From the NCBI GenBank assembly GCA_022712915.1, contig JAFLJQ010000007.1:1-43620 (forward strand): a stretch of 43,620 nucleotides of DNA, read 5' to 3'. The position numbers were made by a program, and so were the translations under genes. Positions 20,892 to 41,666 of this stretch are shown here, piece after piece (position 1 is the first letter of the stretch; each line of letters begins with the position of its first letter). This DNA is from Gammaproteobacteria bacterium (lineage in GTDB: Bacteria; Pseudomonadota; Gammaproteobacteria; UBA6429; Thiohalophilaceae). Under the pieces are notes generated by a model. It made no database searches, was not told the origin of the DNA, and saw nothing but the letters and a program-made list of their open reading frames with translations.

Positions 20892-21014
20892 ATGCTCCTG
20901 ATTGTTCTAATGATCCTAATTGCTCCACTTTTCTATTACTCCCCTATCCTTGCCAGTGTTGTAATCGCTCTTGCTGCCATTTATTATTTCATAAAATCGA
21001 AGAAAAAAAAATAA
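20892..21014 (+). CDS. Small single-pass membrane protein, 40 residues, hypothetical
   Basis: A short frame beginning MLLIVLMILIAPLFYYSPIL, continuing with ASVVIALAAIYYF and ending in IKSKKKK. It is hydrophobic throughout with a lysine-rich C-terminus, so a one- or two-helix inner-membrane peptide with its basic end in the cytoplasm. AAGGAAA lies 7-10 bases before the ATG. It sits alone between moeA and the cytochrome operon, on the same strand as both. Low-complexity hydrophobicity makes chance a real possibility, and I know no family for it. Confidence 0.45.
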   Translation: MLLIVLMILIAPLFYYSPILASVVIALAAIYYFIKSKKKK

Positions 21015-21343: not shown

Positions 21344-21357
21344 TTGATCTGAATCAA
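21344..21357 (+). promoter_or_regulatory. FNR-type operator, class II position
   Basis: Perfect dyad TTGAT-CTGA-ATCAA, the consensus site of FNR/ANR. The hexamer TACTCT at 21380-21385 would serve as -10 if the box centre (21350.5) is at -41.5, the class II activator position. Transcription would then begin near 21392, giving a leader of about 180 bases before the cytochrome operon. No good -35 hexamer is needed in this arrangement, and none is seen. Confidence 0.7.
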
Positions 21358-21570: not shown

Positions 21571-22674
21571 GTGAAAGTACGTGCCACAGTTCTTCTCATT
21601 ATAGCAACAGTCATACCACTGTTACTTGCCCCCTCTGTTGGTCTGGCCGAAGTCGAAGGTAGCTGCACCATGTGTCATAAGTATCCGGGACTTGGCCGGA
21701 TGGAACAAACAGAGGGAGAACAAGCTAAGCCAATCAAACGGCGTTTTTATATCAATAACGACCTCTTTGAAACTACCTATCATGGCAAGATCAGTTGCAA
21801 GAGTTGTCATACCGGGGTCGATAAAATCCCACATACTGATGCACCCGCAGTCAATTGTGCTACTGACTGCCATATCATTAACCCGTCAAGCAATAAATCA
21901 TTTTCTCATAAAAAAATTGTAGACGATTTCAATGACAGTTCTCATGGTAAAAAAGGCTCACGCATAAAAGATAAGAGTGGCTTGCCCGTATGCAAAGACT
22001 GTCACAACAATAAGACATATCATGCTTCTACCGGAAAAGAGACAGACTCCATACACCAGATAACGGTTTGTCAGGAATGCCACCAGTCCGAGGAGTTTGT
22101 AAAACGTTTTTATGAACATATCATTTACCGTACGAGCAAACGACGTACATCAAAAGAAGTCGTTAAACTGTGTGGTAGTTGCCATGCCAATCAGGAATTA
22201 ATGAAAAAGGCCGATCTTGATACCGTGGTTGGCTTCACATCAACGTTTCATGCCAAGGCCATAAAATTTGGAAATGAAGACGTGGCGAATTGTTTGAATT
22301 GTCATGCGCCCTATCAATTGGGTTTTTCACCTCATCGAATTACCTCAGCCCGGGAAAAAAATTCTCCCGTTAATATCAATAACAAGATTGAGACCTGTCG
22401 CCAATCGGATTGTCATTCCGAAGCATCAAAAGACTTTGCTCTGGGCAGTCGAGTACATCCGTCCCCTGACAAAATCAAATTCCTCATTACAGAGAAGACA
22501 TCAAACTCAGGCGAGGTACGGCTCATTGATGACCCGGCTTTTCAGGCCAAGGTGATTGACTGGATTCAGCTTTTCTACAAAATTCTGATTCTTGCCGTTG
22601 TGGGTGGTCTAGGATCACATCGATTACTGGATTTGTACGGCTCGATCCGTCAGCACAGAAAGGGAGGGCACTAA
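21571..22674 (+). CDS. Octaheme c-type cytochrome, periplasmic, C-terminal membrane anchor
   Basis: 367 residues with a signal peptide (about residues 1-26, cleavage near GLAEV). Eight c-heme sites: C32TMCH, C76KSCH, C96ATDCH, C141KDCH, C167QECH, C201GSCH, C241LNCH and C276RQSDCH. The third is CX3CH and the eighth CX4CH; the others are standard CX2CH. A hydrophobic helix (about 333-350, IQLFYKILILAVVGGLG) and a basic tail follow, suggesting an anchor with the hemes in the periplasm. GTG start, supported by AAGGAGA six bases upstream. It is 3 bases from the cytochrome b gene. By analogy with cytochrome b-linked multiheme units, it should take electrons from the quinol pool; the acceptor is unknown. 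Confidence 0.85.
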   Translation: MKVRATVLLIIATVIPLLLAPSVGLAEVEGSCTMCHKYPGLGRMEQTEGEQAKPIKRRFYINNDLFETTYHGKISCKSCHTGVDKIPHTDAPAVNCATDCHIINPSSNKSFSHKKIVDDFNDSSHGKKGSRIKDKSGLPVCKDCHNNKTYHASTGKETDSIHQITVCQECHQSEEFVKRFYEHIIYRTSKRRTSKEVVKLCGSCHANQELMKKADLDTVVGFTSTFHAKAIKFGNEDVANCLNCHAPYQLGFSPHRITSAREKNSPVNINNKIETCRQSDCHSEASKDFALGSRVHPSPDKIKFLITEKTSNSGEVRLIDDPAFQAKVIDWIQLFYKILILAVVGGLGSHRLLDLYGSIRQHRKGGH

Positions 22675-22677
22675 AAC

Positions 22678-23388
22678 ATGAGCCATTCAGGAAAAACCAA
22701 AAAACAATTTGTTCGCCTGACCAAGAGTCAGCGGATACAACACATCATCCTGGTAATTTCGACCACCCTGCTCATTATTACCGGATTCATGTTACAGGCG
22801 GATCGCTGGTTTATCAGTATCTTTGGTAGTGCCAGTGAAACAATTTTCTGGTTGCGGGGTATTATCCACCGTATCGCCGGAGTAAGTGTAACGATCGTCT
22901 GCGTCTATCACCTAATCTATGTCACTGTAACCAAAGACGGCAGAAGCTGGGTCATCGATATGGTGCCCAAGCCAAAGGATGTTGTCGATGCCGTACAGAA
23001 TATGATGTACATGGTAGGATTCAAAAAAGAACGCCCGCGAATGGATCGTTTTATTTACATTGAAAAACTGGAGTACTGGTCGGTGTACTTTGGCATGTTT
23101 ATCGTCATAATTACGGGCTCAATGATGTGGTCCGAATACCTCTGGCCCAAGTTCTACATGGATGTCGCAGGCGCCTTTCACCTCGGAGAAGCCACTCTGG
23201 CTGCGCTGGCCATCATCATCGGACATATCTTTTCAGTGCACTACAATCCACATGTCTATCCCATGAACCGAGCCTTTCTCGATGGCATGATAGATGAAGA
23301 CCTAATGAAAGAAGAACACCAGCTTTGGTACGAACGAGAAATGAAAAAAATAGAAGATTCACAAGCTGGAGTAGATCGCAATGGCTAA
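22678..23388 (+). CDS. Cytochrome b (diheme b-type membrane subunit)
   Basis: 236-residue integral membrane protein with about four helices (near residues 22-40, 60-82, 133-151, 166-190). Histidines placed to ligate b hemes are H22, H64, H78, H168 and H183. This is the cytochrome b/b6 or FdnI-like fold used by formate dehydrogenase and thiosulfate reductase membrane subunits. The C-terminal HYNPHVYPMNRAFLDGMIDEDLMKEEH is typical of cytochrome b proteins paired with multiheme cytochromes. It lies between the octaheme gene (3-base gap) and the triheme gene (8-base overlap), so the three are surely one operon and probably one complex. Likely role: quinol oxidation or quinone reduction. Confidence 0.85.
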   Translation: MSHSGKTKKQFVRLTKSQRIQHIILVISTTLLIITGFMLQADRWFISIFGSASETIFWLRGIIHRIAGVSVTIVCVYHLIYVTVTKDGRSWVIDMVPKPKDVVDAVQNMMYMVGFKKERPRMDRFIYIEKLEYWSVYFGMFIVIITGSMMWSEYLWPKFYMDVAGAFHLGEATLAALAIIIGHIFSVHYNPHVYPMNRAFLDGMIDEDLMKEEHQLWYEREMKKIEDSQAGVDRNG

Positions 23389-24202
23389 TGGTGATATCAG
23401 GCTGATAGTAAAGCGATTAGCCGTTGATGTACTCATGACCGTGATCTTCCTGGCCCTGGCAGCCTTCGCTGTCTGGTTGATGTATATCTATTTTTTACGC
23501 GGCCCAATTGATATCGAAACACGTGGTTTTGTTTCACGCACGGTACATACTGATGATATACAGTCGGTTCAGACCGAAAAGTACAAGATAAGTCATTTTC
23601 ATAACATGGATGACGTTGTGTTGGCCGGGATTCAATCCAAATCACTTTGCGTAAAATGCCACGGTGACTATCCGCACGAAGAAGAGAAAAAAACACGCGC
23701 CTTCTTTAATGCCCATTCCTGGTTTATGGCCTGTGAAGTCTGTCATATGAAACCAGAGAAAAATGAACAGGTAAACTACCGCTGGCTGGAACCAGATACC
23801 GGTAAGGAACTAACCAGCCTTAATGGCTATGCCGGAGTGTATGGTGGACTCATCATCCCTCTGAAGGTTGTCAGCGGGATAGAACAACGCCTGGACATTC
23901 TTTCTGATAAAGATCAAGCATTCACTGAAGAGTTTATAAGCCAAAGCAAAAACGTTAAAGCAGATCAGAATTTCATACCCGTCAAATCTTCACAGGAAAG
24001 GATCCACAAGTCCCTTTCTAAAAAAGCAGCCTTCTGTGATGACTGCCATACCCGAAATGGTTTGCTGAATTTCAATCAGTTGTTGTATTTACCGAAAAGG
24101 GCATCACACCTTGAGTCACTGCACATGGCATCAATGGTTACAAAATATGAAAAATTCCATATGCCAAAACTTTTTGATAAAAAAATAGTTCATCCTGATT
24201 AA
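23381..24202 (+). CDS. Membrane-anchored triheme c-type cytochrome
   Basis: 273 residues. A single N-terminal helix (about residues 15-38, VLMTVIFLALAAFAVWLMYIYFL) acts as uncleaved anchor, with the rest periplasmic. Three CX2CH sites: C90VKCH, C118EVCHM and C219DDCH. The CEVCHM motif with methionine after the heme histidine resembles the NapC/NirT quinol dehydrogenase heme, but the protein has only three hemes, and a long heme-free segment (about 125-215) is not NapC-like. I do not recognise a named family. It overlaps the cytochrome b gene by 8 bases and ends the operon. Confidence 0.8.
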   Translation: MANGDIRLIVKRLAVDVLMTVIFLALAAFAVWLMYIYFLRGPIDIETRGFVSRTVHTDDIQSVQTEKYKISHFHNMDDVVLAGIQSKSLCVKCHGDYPHEEEKKTRAFFNAHSWFMACEVCHMKPEKNEQVNYRWLEPDTGKELTSLNGYAGVYGGLIIPLKVVSGIEQRLDILSDKDQAFTEEFISQSKNVKADQNFIPVKSSQERIHKSLSKKAAFCDDCHTRNGLLNFNQLLYLPKRASHLESLHMASMVTKYEKFHMPKLFDKKIVHPD

Positions 24203-39287: not shown

Positions 39288-39524
39288 TTTTCTGAAAGAC
39301 CTCTGGCATGCCTTAAAAGACCCATACTGACACAAACACGCAAAAACTAATCTACTCAAGATACTCCACCAAAGAGGGAAAACTAACTTATTGTAAACAA
39401 TGAAATATTTTGTTTTCTTAAAGAGGACACCCGGAGAAAAACACGAATACCGGGATGTTAAATCTGCATAAAGAATCGTTAAGGAATGACTTTATTTTAC
39501 CGCTCTAACCTAATCGTTATTGCA

Positions 39525-39543
39525 AATGCGAATGATTTGCATT
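39525..39543 (+). promoter_or_regulatory. Fur-box-like palindrome
   Basis: AATGCGAATGATTTGCATT is a near-perfect dyad (AATGC-AAT-ATT-GCATT) similar to ferric uptake regulator boxes of gammaproteobacteria. It lies 44 bases before the ATG of the iron-related membrane protein and overlaps a possible -35 (TTGCAA, 39520-39525). Predicts iron-repressed expression of both downstream genes. Confidence 0.6.
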
Positions 39544-39587
39544 ACCGTATAGAGATGTTATCTGAAGAACTAAAACGGACACCCTCC

Positions 39588-41063
39588 ATGGCGAATAAGC
39601 CCCAGATTCTGCATCAATATGCCCCAGCCTCATCCAGCAATACACCATTAAAAACGATCCCCGTGCATATCAACAACCATCCCCACCCTGGCCGCAAACC
39701 CGGACTAGCCAGCCAAATCGAGGCCTTTTTTGTCCGCCATAGAAACCGGCTGATATGGGTACACACAGTCATGTTCCTGTTCTTCCTGACAGTGATTGTG
39801 CTGCCACTTTTCCTGGGGGAAGCACCCGAGGATGCTACCCCACTCAGCCATTTTACCCCCTTCGCCAACTATGCCATGTGGGGTCTCTGGTTTCCCCTTG
39901 TGCTGCTGTCGGTAATATTCACCGGCCGCAGCTGGTGCGGTCTGCTCTGCCCCATGGGAGCCGCCTCCGAATGGGCCAATAAGATCGGCTTGCAACGTGC
40001 CATTCCTGGCTGGATGCGATGGGAAGGCACCCCCATCGTAAGCTTTCTAGTCATCACTATCCTGGGACAGACAGTAGGAGTACGTGACCACCCCGAGGCC
40101 GTTGCAGAAGTCTTTGGTGGCACCATGCTGCTGGCCATTATTATTGGCTATATATATGGCCGCAATAATCGAGCCTGGTGTCGCCACATGTGTCCTATCG
40201 GCCTATTGCTCGGCATCTTTTCTCGCATTGGCGCGGTGCAGTTCGCCGCCCGCCGACCCCGTCCAGGCGGTGACCGATATACAGAAAAGACCGTCTGCCC
40301 CAACATGATCGACATCGCCCGCAAGGAAGAATCCCGGCACTGCATAGAATGCTTTCGCTGCGTCCATCCCGAGTCAAAGGGCGGGCTGCAACTGCGTCTG
40401 CGCCACCCCGGCGAAGAGGTCGAAAATATTCGCCAGCATAACCCCAATCCCTACGAGGTCGGATTTCTGTTCCTTGGCATCGGTGTTGCCCTGGGAGGAT
40501 TCCTATGGCTGGTGCTGCCGCAATACGGCCAGCTACGGCAGATCATCGGAGAATGGTTTATCGACAACGGGCACTACTGGATCGGCGAATCTGGCCCCTG
40601 GTGGCTGATGAGCGTACATCCAGAACGGCGCGAGGTTTTTAACTGGCTCGATTTCGGCACCATCGTCGGCTTTATGCTGGCCATCATGCTGCTTTTAGCC
40701 GTCCTGCTCGGACTCACCACCTGGTTATCGGCCTGGCTCTCCGGCCAACTAAAAGGGGACAAAACCCTCAGCGAACGCTTCACCGAACTGGGTTACCAGT
40801 ACGCACCGGTGGCCATGATGTCTCTAGTAATCGGCCTGGGCTCCGCCCTGTTCCAACCCCTGGAAAACTTGGGACAAACACTTCCCAGTCTGGCAAAGGG
40901 CGCACTTTTTACCGTGGGCCTGTTTTGGAGCCTATGGCTGGGTGATCGCATATTGATGCGTCAGGGCGTAGCGGCGGGTTATCGGTGGATTCCTATGCTG
41001 CCGGGCGGTCTGGGTAGCCTGGCCGTCGGTGCCGCCTGGTGGCCGGGGATCTTTGGAATATAA
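39588..41063 (+). CDS. Polyferredoxin-type membrane protein linked to P19 iron uptake
   Basis: About 491 residues, 8 or more membrane helices. Cysteine groups SWCGLLCPMG and AWCRHMCPIG are the twin CxxxCP motifs of NapH/CcoG/NosR-type membrane electron carriers. A further CPNMIDIARKEESRHCIECFRCVHP gives ferredoxin-like [4Fe-4S] ligands. I place the start at 39588 (MANKPQILHQY) because a Fur-box lies inside the upstream extension that begins at 39486. Followed 63 bases later by a P19/Tp34 protein, as FtrD-like proteins accompany FtrA. Probable role: supplying or removing electrons for periplasmic iron handling. No FTR1 permease is nearby. Confidence 0.82.
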   Translation: MANKPQILHQYAPASSSNTPLKTIPVHINNHPHPGRKPGLASQIEAFFVRHRNRLIWVHTVMFLFFLTVIVLPLFLGEAPEDATPLSHFTPFANYAMWGLWFPLVLLSVIFTGRSWCGLLCPMGAASEWANKIGLQRAIPGWMRWEGTPIVSFLVITILGQTVGVRDHPEAVAEVFGGTMLLAIIIGYIYGRNNRAWCRHMCPIGLLLGIFSRIGAVQFAARRPRPGGDRYTEKTVCPNMIDIARKEESRHCIECFRCVHPESKGGLQLRLRHPGEEVENIRQHNPNPYEVGFLFLGIGVALGGFLWLVLPQYGQLRQIIGEWFIDNGHYWIGESGPWWLMSVHPERREVFNWLDFGTIVGFMLAIMLLLAVLLGLTTWLSAWLSGQLKGDKTLSERFTELGYQYAPVAMMSLVIGLGSALFQPLENLGQTLPSLAKGALFTVGLFWSLWLGDRILMRQGVAAGYRWIPMLPGGLGSLAVGAAWWPGIFGI

Positions 41064-41126
41064 ATTTAAAACGTCACCTTTACGACTACAGATGCATCAC
41101 ACAACTTTTCAATCAGGAGATACTTA

Positions 41127-41666
41127 ATGTACAAAAAAATAAAACCAATCACTTTAACGACCAGTCTGGCACTGCTCATCGGAGCCGGAAACCTGTCCGC
41201 CGCAGATTTTCCCATAGGCAAACCTGTGGTCAAAAATGGATTAGAAATCGCCGCCGTTTACATCCAACCCACCAAGATGGAACCCATGCTACCCGGCATG
41301 ATGAAGCCCAGCGATATCCATCTGGAAGCTGACATCAGCGTAGCGAAAGGCAACAAGAATGGTTTTAGTGAAGGCAGTTGGATGCCTTACCTACAGATTA
41401 GTTACCATATTCAGAAAGTCGGTTCCGATTGGTCCACCCTCGGCGTTCTCATGCCCATGATTGCCTCCGATGGCCCCCACTACGCCGAAAACATCAAACT
41501 CAACGGCCCCGGAAAATACAAACTAACCTACCACATTGCACCACCGCCCGTTAATGGCTTCTACCGCCACACAGACAAAGAAACCGGCGTCGGCAAATGG
41601 TGGACACCCTTTGATCTAAACTGGGACTTCACCTACTTAGGCGCAGGTAAAAAGGGCGGCTACTAA
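41127..41666 (+). CDS. Periplasmic iron-transport protein, P19/Tp34 family
   Basis: 179 residues with a signal peptide (about 1-25, ending NLSA). The mature protein begins ADFPIGKPVVKNGLEIAAVY. Family features: KMEPMLPGMMKPSDIHLEADISVAKGNKNGF with the metal-ligand histidine and glutamate, LGVLMPMIASDGPHYAENIKL with methionine and histidine, and KLTYHIAPPP with a further histidine, then FYRHTDKETGVGKWW. These match the copper/iron site of Campylobacter P19. GGAG ribosome binding site upstream (CAGGAG). Acts in high-affinity ferrous iron uptake in known systems. Confidence 0.92.
   Translation: MYKKIKPITLTTSLALLIGAGNLSAADFPIGKPVVKNGLEIAAVYIQPTKMEPMLPGMMKPSDIHLEADISVAKGNKNGFSEGSWMPYLQISYHIQKVGSDWSTLGVLMPMIASDGPHYAENIKLNGPGKYKLTYHIAPPPVNGFYRHTDKETGVGKWWTPFDLNWDFTYLGAGKKGGY

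Follow-up and report, generated by a model that had tools for sequence, protein, structure and literature searches.

Three adjacent genes in the window (the whole 43.6-kb stretch of DNA that was analysed) code for an octaheme cytochrome c, a cytochrome b and a triheme cytochrome c. Judged from sequence comparison, their order is conserved beyond chance and the trio is a true unit. The products probably form one inner-membrane complex, a quinol:multiheme-cytochrome c oxidoreductase that would connect the quinone pool with the periplasm and be switched by FNR. This one-complex reading draws on the gene order conserved at 30 of 32 loci, on matching gene trees, on natural fusions, on conserved histidines and on FNR boxes.

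Gene organization of the trio in the window

The features of the trio region are the following.

21344..21357, + strand: perfect FNR/ANR-type operator TTGATctgaATCAA, 213 bases 5' of the octaheme start codon
21560..21565, + strand: ribosome-binding site AAGGAG, ahead of the octaheme GTG
21571..22674, + strand: octaheme cytochrome c gene, GTG start, 367 aa; signal peptide and C-terminal helix
22678..23388, + strand: cytochrome b gene, FdnI/b561-type, probable quinone-reactive subunit, 236 aa
23381..24202, + strand: triheme cytochrome c gene, 273 aa; N-terminal membrane anchor

The coupling of the three genes noticed in the initial annotation is confirmed by a gap of 3 bases between the octaheme and cytochrome b genes and an overlap of 8 bases between the cytochrome b and triheme genes. 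The count of 11 c-type hemes is likewise correct (eight motifs in the octaheme, three in the triheme), and helices predicted in each subunit make the proposed membrane attachment of all three plausible. The c-type genes of the trio are the sole window ORFs of at least 90 aa with a CX2-4CH motif. No porin was found by Pfam among the 29 window ORFs scanned, and no Fe-S domain in the trio proteins.

The left part of the window carries core genes (RNase R, purA, HisS-like, hflC, hflK, hflX, miaA, mutL, amidase, YjeF, queG). This run is followed by mobA, mobB and moeA, and then by the trio. The initial annotation pointed to the molybdenum-cofactor neighbours. The genes flanking the window trio have no relatives beside the other trios of its type (type I, see below). 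The link was therefore rejected, and the adjoining Mo-cofactor genes look incidental to the trio. Promoter-like sites (13 vs 9.7 in shuffles) and terminator-like sites (3 vs 3.1) are near chance. Between moeA and the trio, in an AT-rich gap, lies a 40-codon ORF (20892-21014) whose small product is hydrophobic and has a basic tail. Further downstream, 39483-41663 codes for a Fer4_5 membrane protein and then a PF10634 Fe2+-transport protein, which probably act as a pair in iron uptake.

Conservation of the trio and its paralogue types

Six-frame profile mapping placed 32 octaheme genes, a set from which fused, type IV, hybrid and 11-heme relatives were left out. At 30 of them octaheme, cytochrome b and triheme follow each other in this order on the same strand, two of these octahemes being cut by contig ends. 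The exceptions are L084, which runs off its contig inside cytochrome b, and L090, a lone fragment. Note that loci were picked via octaheme or cytochrome b matches, so that 30/32 measures coupling once either gene is present, and that the loci with flanks are a part of the cytochrome b matches. The earlier expectation of a unit recurring without a fixed reductase is borne out, since the order is kept and no reductase recurs beside type I; relatives with the genes apart were looked for, and the L090 fragment is the one case found.

The octaheme profile matched 29 of 369 genomes of the class at E<=1e-20. Split octahemes of the trio kind occur in 11 of the 369, namely ten clear cases including the window's own genome, and G135, cut by a contig end. 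The remaining 18 matched genomes hold mainly type IV and nine-heme fused forms (see below). In a cytochrome b tree of 49 rows the trios form type I (8 rows, 100/100), type II (9 rows with L091, 100/99) and type III (13 rows, 100/100), all apart from 16 fused proteins. The split cytochrome b of L075, on a very long branch, falls among the latter, so that the fused proteins are not cleanly one clade in this tree. In the octaheme and triheme trees, too, each of the three types is a single clade, with L091, a long branch, ungrouped in both. The cytochrome b tree is without L084 (cut at the contig end) and the octaheme tree without L090, L092 and L101; L098, L099 and L104 are copies of L080, L079 and L089. 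The same clades in all three trees imply that the three genes remained linked across two ancient duplications; no mixing was observed. At least two types are found in 7 of the 10 genomes with clear split octahemes: all three in G000, G081 and G161 (three families, the window's genome among them), and types II and III in G247, G347, G130 and G103.

The window trio is of type I. Seven public MAG contigs carry this type; the titles of six name Gammaproteobacteria and that of one Pseudomonadota. Three of the seven are L080, L079 and L089. Nine loci came from a contig search with an alignment of four type I proteins; an earlier contig search with the cytochrome b alone as query gave no match. The window's order was searched in 40 genomes, and a type I cytochrome b at E<=1e-30 occurs in the own genome alone, so the distribution is patchy. 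Over 398 genomes of the phylum there are, besides the own one, six matches at E<=1e-30, with open frames of 687-732 aa that correspond in size to the fused form. A set of 72,556 plasmids gave no tblastn match to the octaheme or to one fused relative.

Type I trios are often solitary. In five of eight loci (the window, L079, L089, L100, L103) no other ORF with at least two heme motifs was found in the stretch examined. The L080 trio adjoins genes for a six-heme hybrid and for a protein with eight hemes. In L102 a type II trio immediately precedes that of type I, with an 18-heme gene on the downstream side; the L101 stretch spans only 3.2 kb. The frequent lack of an adjoining porin or outer cytochrome would suit a trio that feeds one dedicated soluble periplasmic reductase encoded elsewhere, in the manner of NapC/NrfH, instead of an extracellular route. 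Such a role is improbable, as no reductase recurs beside type I loci and the paralogues II and III sit with porin-like and giant multiheme proteins.

Properties of the three subunits

The cytochrome b belongs to PF01292 (50.9 bits, cut-off 30.1) and stays below the cut-off of TIGR01583, formate dehydrogenase gamma (54 of 115.85 bits). Its H22, H64, H168 and H183 align with H18, H57, H155 and H169 of FdnI, which we take to be the FdnI heme ligands. Together with the further histidines H78 and H188 they justify the earlier description of a cytochrome b with well-placed histidines. H64, H78, H168 and H183 are invariant in 23 cytochrome b relatives, H22 and H188 in 22 of the 23. Three hydrophobic stretches exceed the threshold, where four helices are expected from FdnI. 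The protein thus resembles the FdnI/Ni-Fe-hydrogenase cytochrome b group in family score and aligned ligand histidines, and differs from that group in that it pairs with multiheme cytochromes c and not with formate dehydrogenase or hydrogenase. A cytochrome b of this kind beside the octaheme and triheme agrees with the quinone-linked cytochrome b/c unit first suggested.

The octaheme carries six CXXCH motifs, one CX3CH (aa 96) and one CX4CH (aa 276), and its C-terminal helix spans aa 326-350. It scores 35.8 bits against Pfam Cytochrome_C7, above the cut-off of 24.8. Exactly 16 histidines are invariant in 23 aligned octahemes, eight in the motifs and eight outside. As the eight invariant non-motif histidines match the eight hemes in number, all hemes can be bis-His, without an open site, and by this sequence criterion the octaheme looks like a wire and not a reductase. 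No NCBIfam family matched the octaheme, and its profile has no match in the PDB with E<=0.01. The AlphaFold model is poor (pLDDT 63, pTM 0.49), too weak for tracing hemes, and Foldseek with this weak model (pLDDT 63) found nothing in the PDB at E<=0.001. A paralogue octaheme gave an NrfH match below the cut-off.

The N-terminal helix of the triheme covers aa 5-43. Seven of its histidines are invariant in 22 of 22 relatives, three from the motifs and four others. It reaches no Pfam cut-off, and its AlphaFold model (pLDDT 68) is too weak for heme tracing. A local match to TIGR04315, the octaheme tetrathionate reductase family, remains below the cut-off (32.2 of 375 bits), and there is a weak match to PDB 1sp3 (E 6e-5). 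These two matches, and a number of hemes equal to that of the enzymes concerned, could be read as signs that the octaheme is a terminal reductase of the tetrathionate, nitrite or hydroxylamine kind, fed by cytochrome b and triheme. The count of eight non-motif invariant histidines leaves no open heme site for this, and the octaheme itself has neither an NCBIfam family nor a PDB match for its profile at E<=0.01, which makes a catalytic octaheme very improbable. TIGR04315 was rejected as an assignment, the octaheme giving no match and the triheme one below cut-off. That NCBIfam cut-offs are reached by none of the three proteins is in keeping with the lack of a designation for this unit.

FNR boxes upstream of the trios

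By the FNR consensus, a perfect box lies within 500 nt 5' of 9 of 27 trios; the corresponding stretches of 229 other ORFs contain none (Fisher P 4e-10, indicative only, the loci being related). The count used 27 of the 32 loci (L077, L084, L090, L092 and L101 are out), and the remaining 332,904 bases of the same loci hold no perfect site. By type, the perfect box is found in 1/7 type I trios (the window alone), 6/9 of type II and 2/11 of type III. When one mismatch is allowed the numbers are 11/27 trios vs 16/229 other ORFs, with type I at 3/7. A wider scan of 29 upstreams of 600 nt, including two loci outside Proteobacteria, also gave 9 perfect boxes; all loci of that scan, overlapping and partly duplicated, contain 24 in 859,454 bases. 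The own genome encodes a protein (L117:1012-1785) with C16, C19 and C25 (CX2CX5C), C118 and ETVSR, which presumably mark it as FNR-like. The boxes and the FNR-like gene point to use of the trio under anoxia, and the best reading is that it is FNR-controlled through the predicted operator.

Fusions, substitutions and larger clusters

Sixteen gammaproteobacterial proteins (L054-L066, L068-L070) join a nine-heme relative of the octaheme to cytochrome b in the order of the trio. As in the trio, the octaheme profile matches the first part and the cytochrome b profile the second; unlike the trio, these proteins are single chains with nine motifs and are separate in the cytochrome b tree. These 16 fusions argue that octaheme and cytochrome b act together. 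In the type IV layout, found on own contig C261 (L028:5529-13731), a NapH-like 4Fe-4S membrane protein is joined to the front of the octaheme. Genes for a triheme and a 12-heme protein come next, the latter with a front that appears NHL-like by eye. Four further loci (L093-L096) agree with this layout, as judged from protein size, helices and number of hemes, with the fusion split in two in L095. Additional 6-, 8- and 7-heme proteins are present in L028, L095 and L096. Type IV suggests, at the sequence level, that a NapH-like part can replace cytochrome b as the quinol-oxidising part.

Other arrangements were also encountered. Six-heme hybrids of an octaheme first part and a triheme are coded by L029:6939-7892 (own C39) and L080:9947-10876, while the copy on C223 (L030:5611-6291) has lost heme motifs and looks degenerate. 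L105:2631-6274 (Poribacteria) and L106:5191-8735 (Abyssobacteria) carry two successive 11-heme octaheme relatives and a cytochrome b of 39% identity, and have no triheme. An exported protein of 241-252 aa adjoins several type II trios (L073:9304-10029, L081:16723-17481, L078:4874-5605) and has no match in Pfam (one searched) or NCBIfam (two searched). L075:7441-10152, from a genome of the same family, has genes for proteins with eight and with three hemes and for a divergent cytochrome b, arranged in another order, and is possibly a distant cousin of the trio.

The own assembly (4.24 Mb, 274 contigs) has two further trios, of types II and III, in tandem and in the same gene order on contig C30. 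The cluster there (L027 1684-16215) also codes for two cytochromes, one with 18 hemes and one with 8, for a pair of NHL proteins and for a porin-like protein of 720 aa. Trios of types II and III often border on, or form part of, clusters that also code for NHL propellers, for cytochromes with 8, 12 and 18/24 hemes, and for a porin-like protein. The latter, of 672-720 aa, lies upstream in four type III clusters and has Phe as its C-terminal residue; outer-membrane barrels end in Phe. No match for porin-like proteins was obtained in Pfam (three searched) or NCBIfam (four searched). The C30 cluster is a candidate trans-envelope electron conduit, with similar clusters in other genomes.

Proposed mechanism

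Complex formation, quinone activity, heme order, outward direction and final acceptor are what we infer. The natural path would run from quinone by way of cytochrome b and octaheme to the triheme. The diheme cytochrome b would oxidise quinol and pass electrons to the anchored octaheme and from there to the anchored triheme, which may deliver them to periplasmic multiheme carriers. In the own genome further transfer would probably be to the NHL/porin-like/8- and 18-heme cluster on C30. FNR would turn the complex on without oxygen.

Several points go against this reading. The perfect FNR box is found in just 1/7 type I and 2/11 type III trios, five of eight type I loci have no nearby outer-membrane partner or other multiheme gene, and the order of genes differs in L075. 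Furthermore, a quinone site of the FdnI type on the cytoplasmic side would make quinol oxidation toward the periplasm cost proton-motive force and would favour quinone reduction. FdnI, which the cytochrome b resembles, reduces quinone with gain of proton-motive force. Electrons could accordingly flow in reverse and reach quinone from donors in the periplasm or outside the cell (Fe(II), reduced sulfur, a cathode or a partner cell), with energy conserved as in FdnI. The literature contains proposals of this kind, for CbcBA in syntrophic sulfate reducers (PMC10553843) and for NHL-bearing porin-multiheme clusters such as Uet in electron uptake (PMC10734462). The FNR boxes indicate anoxic use and not aerobic iron oxidation, although nitrate-coupled uptake would still be compatible with them. 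Reverse flow is rather unlikely, and outward quinol oxidation is retained as the preferred reading.

It is possible, if doubtful, that types I-III are three parallel quinone gates, intact since two old duplications and set at different redox potentials, which share a porin/NHL/multiheme conduit and FNR control while each has its own anchored triheme. They would then be the gammaproteobacterial counterpart, separately assembled, of Geobacter ImcH/CbcL/CbcBA. The protein by which quinol electrons enter a periplasmic heme network affects the energy yield of respiration with metals, electrodes or partner cells. The trio is a small conserved unit recognisable by sequence, with three paralogues in one genome, often with an oxygen-response operator, and in natural versions cytochrome b is part of a fusion or has apparently given way to a NapH-like protein. 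With these features, whether different potentials are served by different quinone gates becomes testable outside Geobacter. In uncultured Gammaproteobacteria the trio might serve as a marker for extracellular electron transfer.

Comparison with known systems

None of the trio proteins matched NapC/NrfH at E<=0.01. The Ohc/Nhc complexes of sulfate reducers consist of an octa- or nonaheme cytochrome c, an FeS protein and a membrane subunit. A prior description of an octaheme-cytochrome b-triheme unit was not found in the accessible portions of the open-access literature. The Uet system (PMC10734462) has NHL, porin-like and large multiheme parts in common with type III trio clusters; no octaheme-cytochrome b-triheme trio appears in the available portions of the Uet and PCC3 descriptions. 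The inner-membrane protein of PCC3, described as having five helices and about 300 aa (PMC5566968), is unlike the trio. PCC3 and PCC4 were rejected for the window, as its 29 ORFs scanned with Pfam include no porin and it has no other multiheme gene.

The analogy to Geobacter Cbc complexes drawn in the initial annotation fits both layout and presumed function, the comparison being one of descriptions. CbcL is described as an inner-membrane protein with nine c-hemes, a diheme b membrane domain and the triheme partner PpcA (PMC9129911). By that description, CbcL/PpcA and the trio have in common, in part presumed for the trio, a quinone oxidoreductase role, diheme b and bis-His multiheme c parts, the same order and delivery to a triheme. 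CbcL, as described there, combines nine c-hemes and six helices in a single chain, whereas the trio has a separate octaheme with eight motifs and a 236-aa cytochrome b. Also unlike CbcL, the octaheme of the trio has its own anchor, and the operon itself supplies the triheme, an anchored protein of 273 aa. The best reading by analogy is that CbcL is the nearest worked example and that the trio would work like CbcL, but split and with its own anchored triheme.
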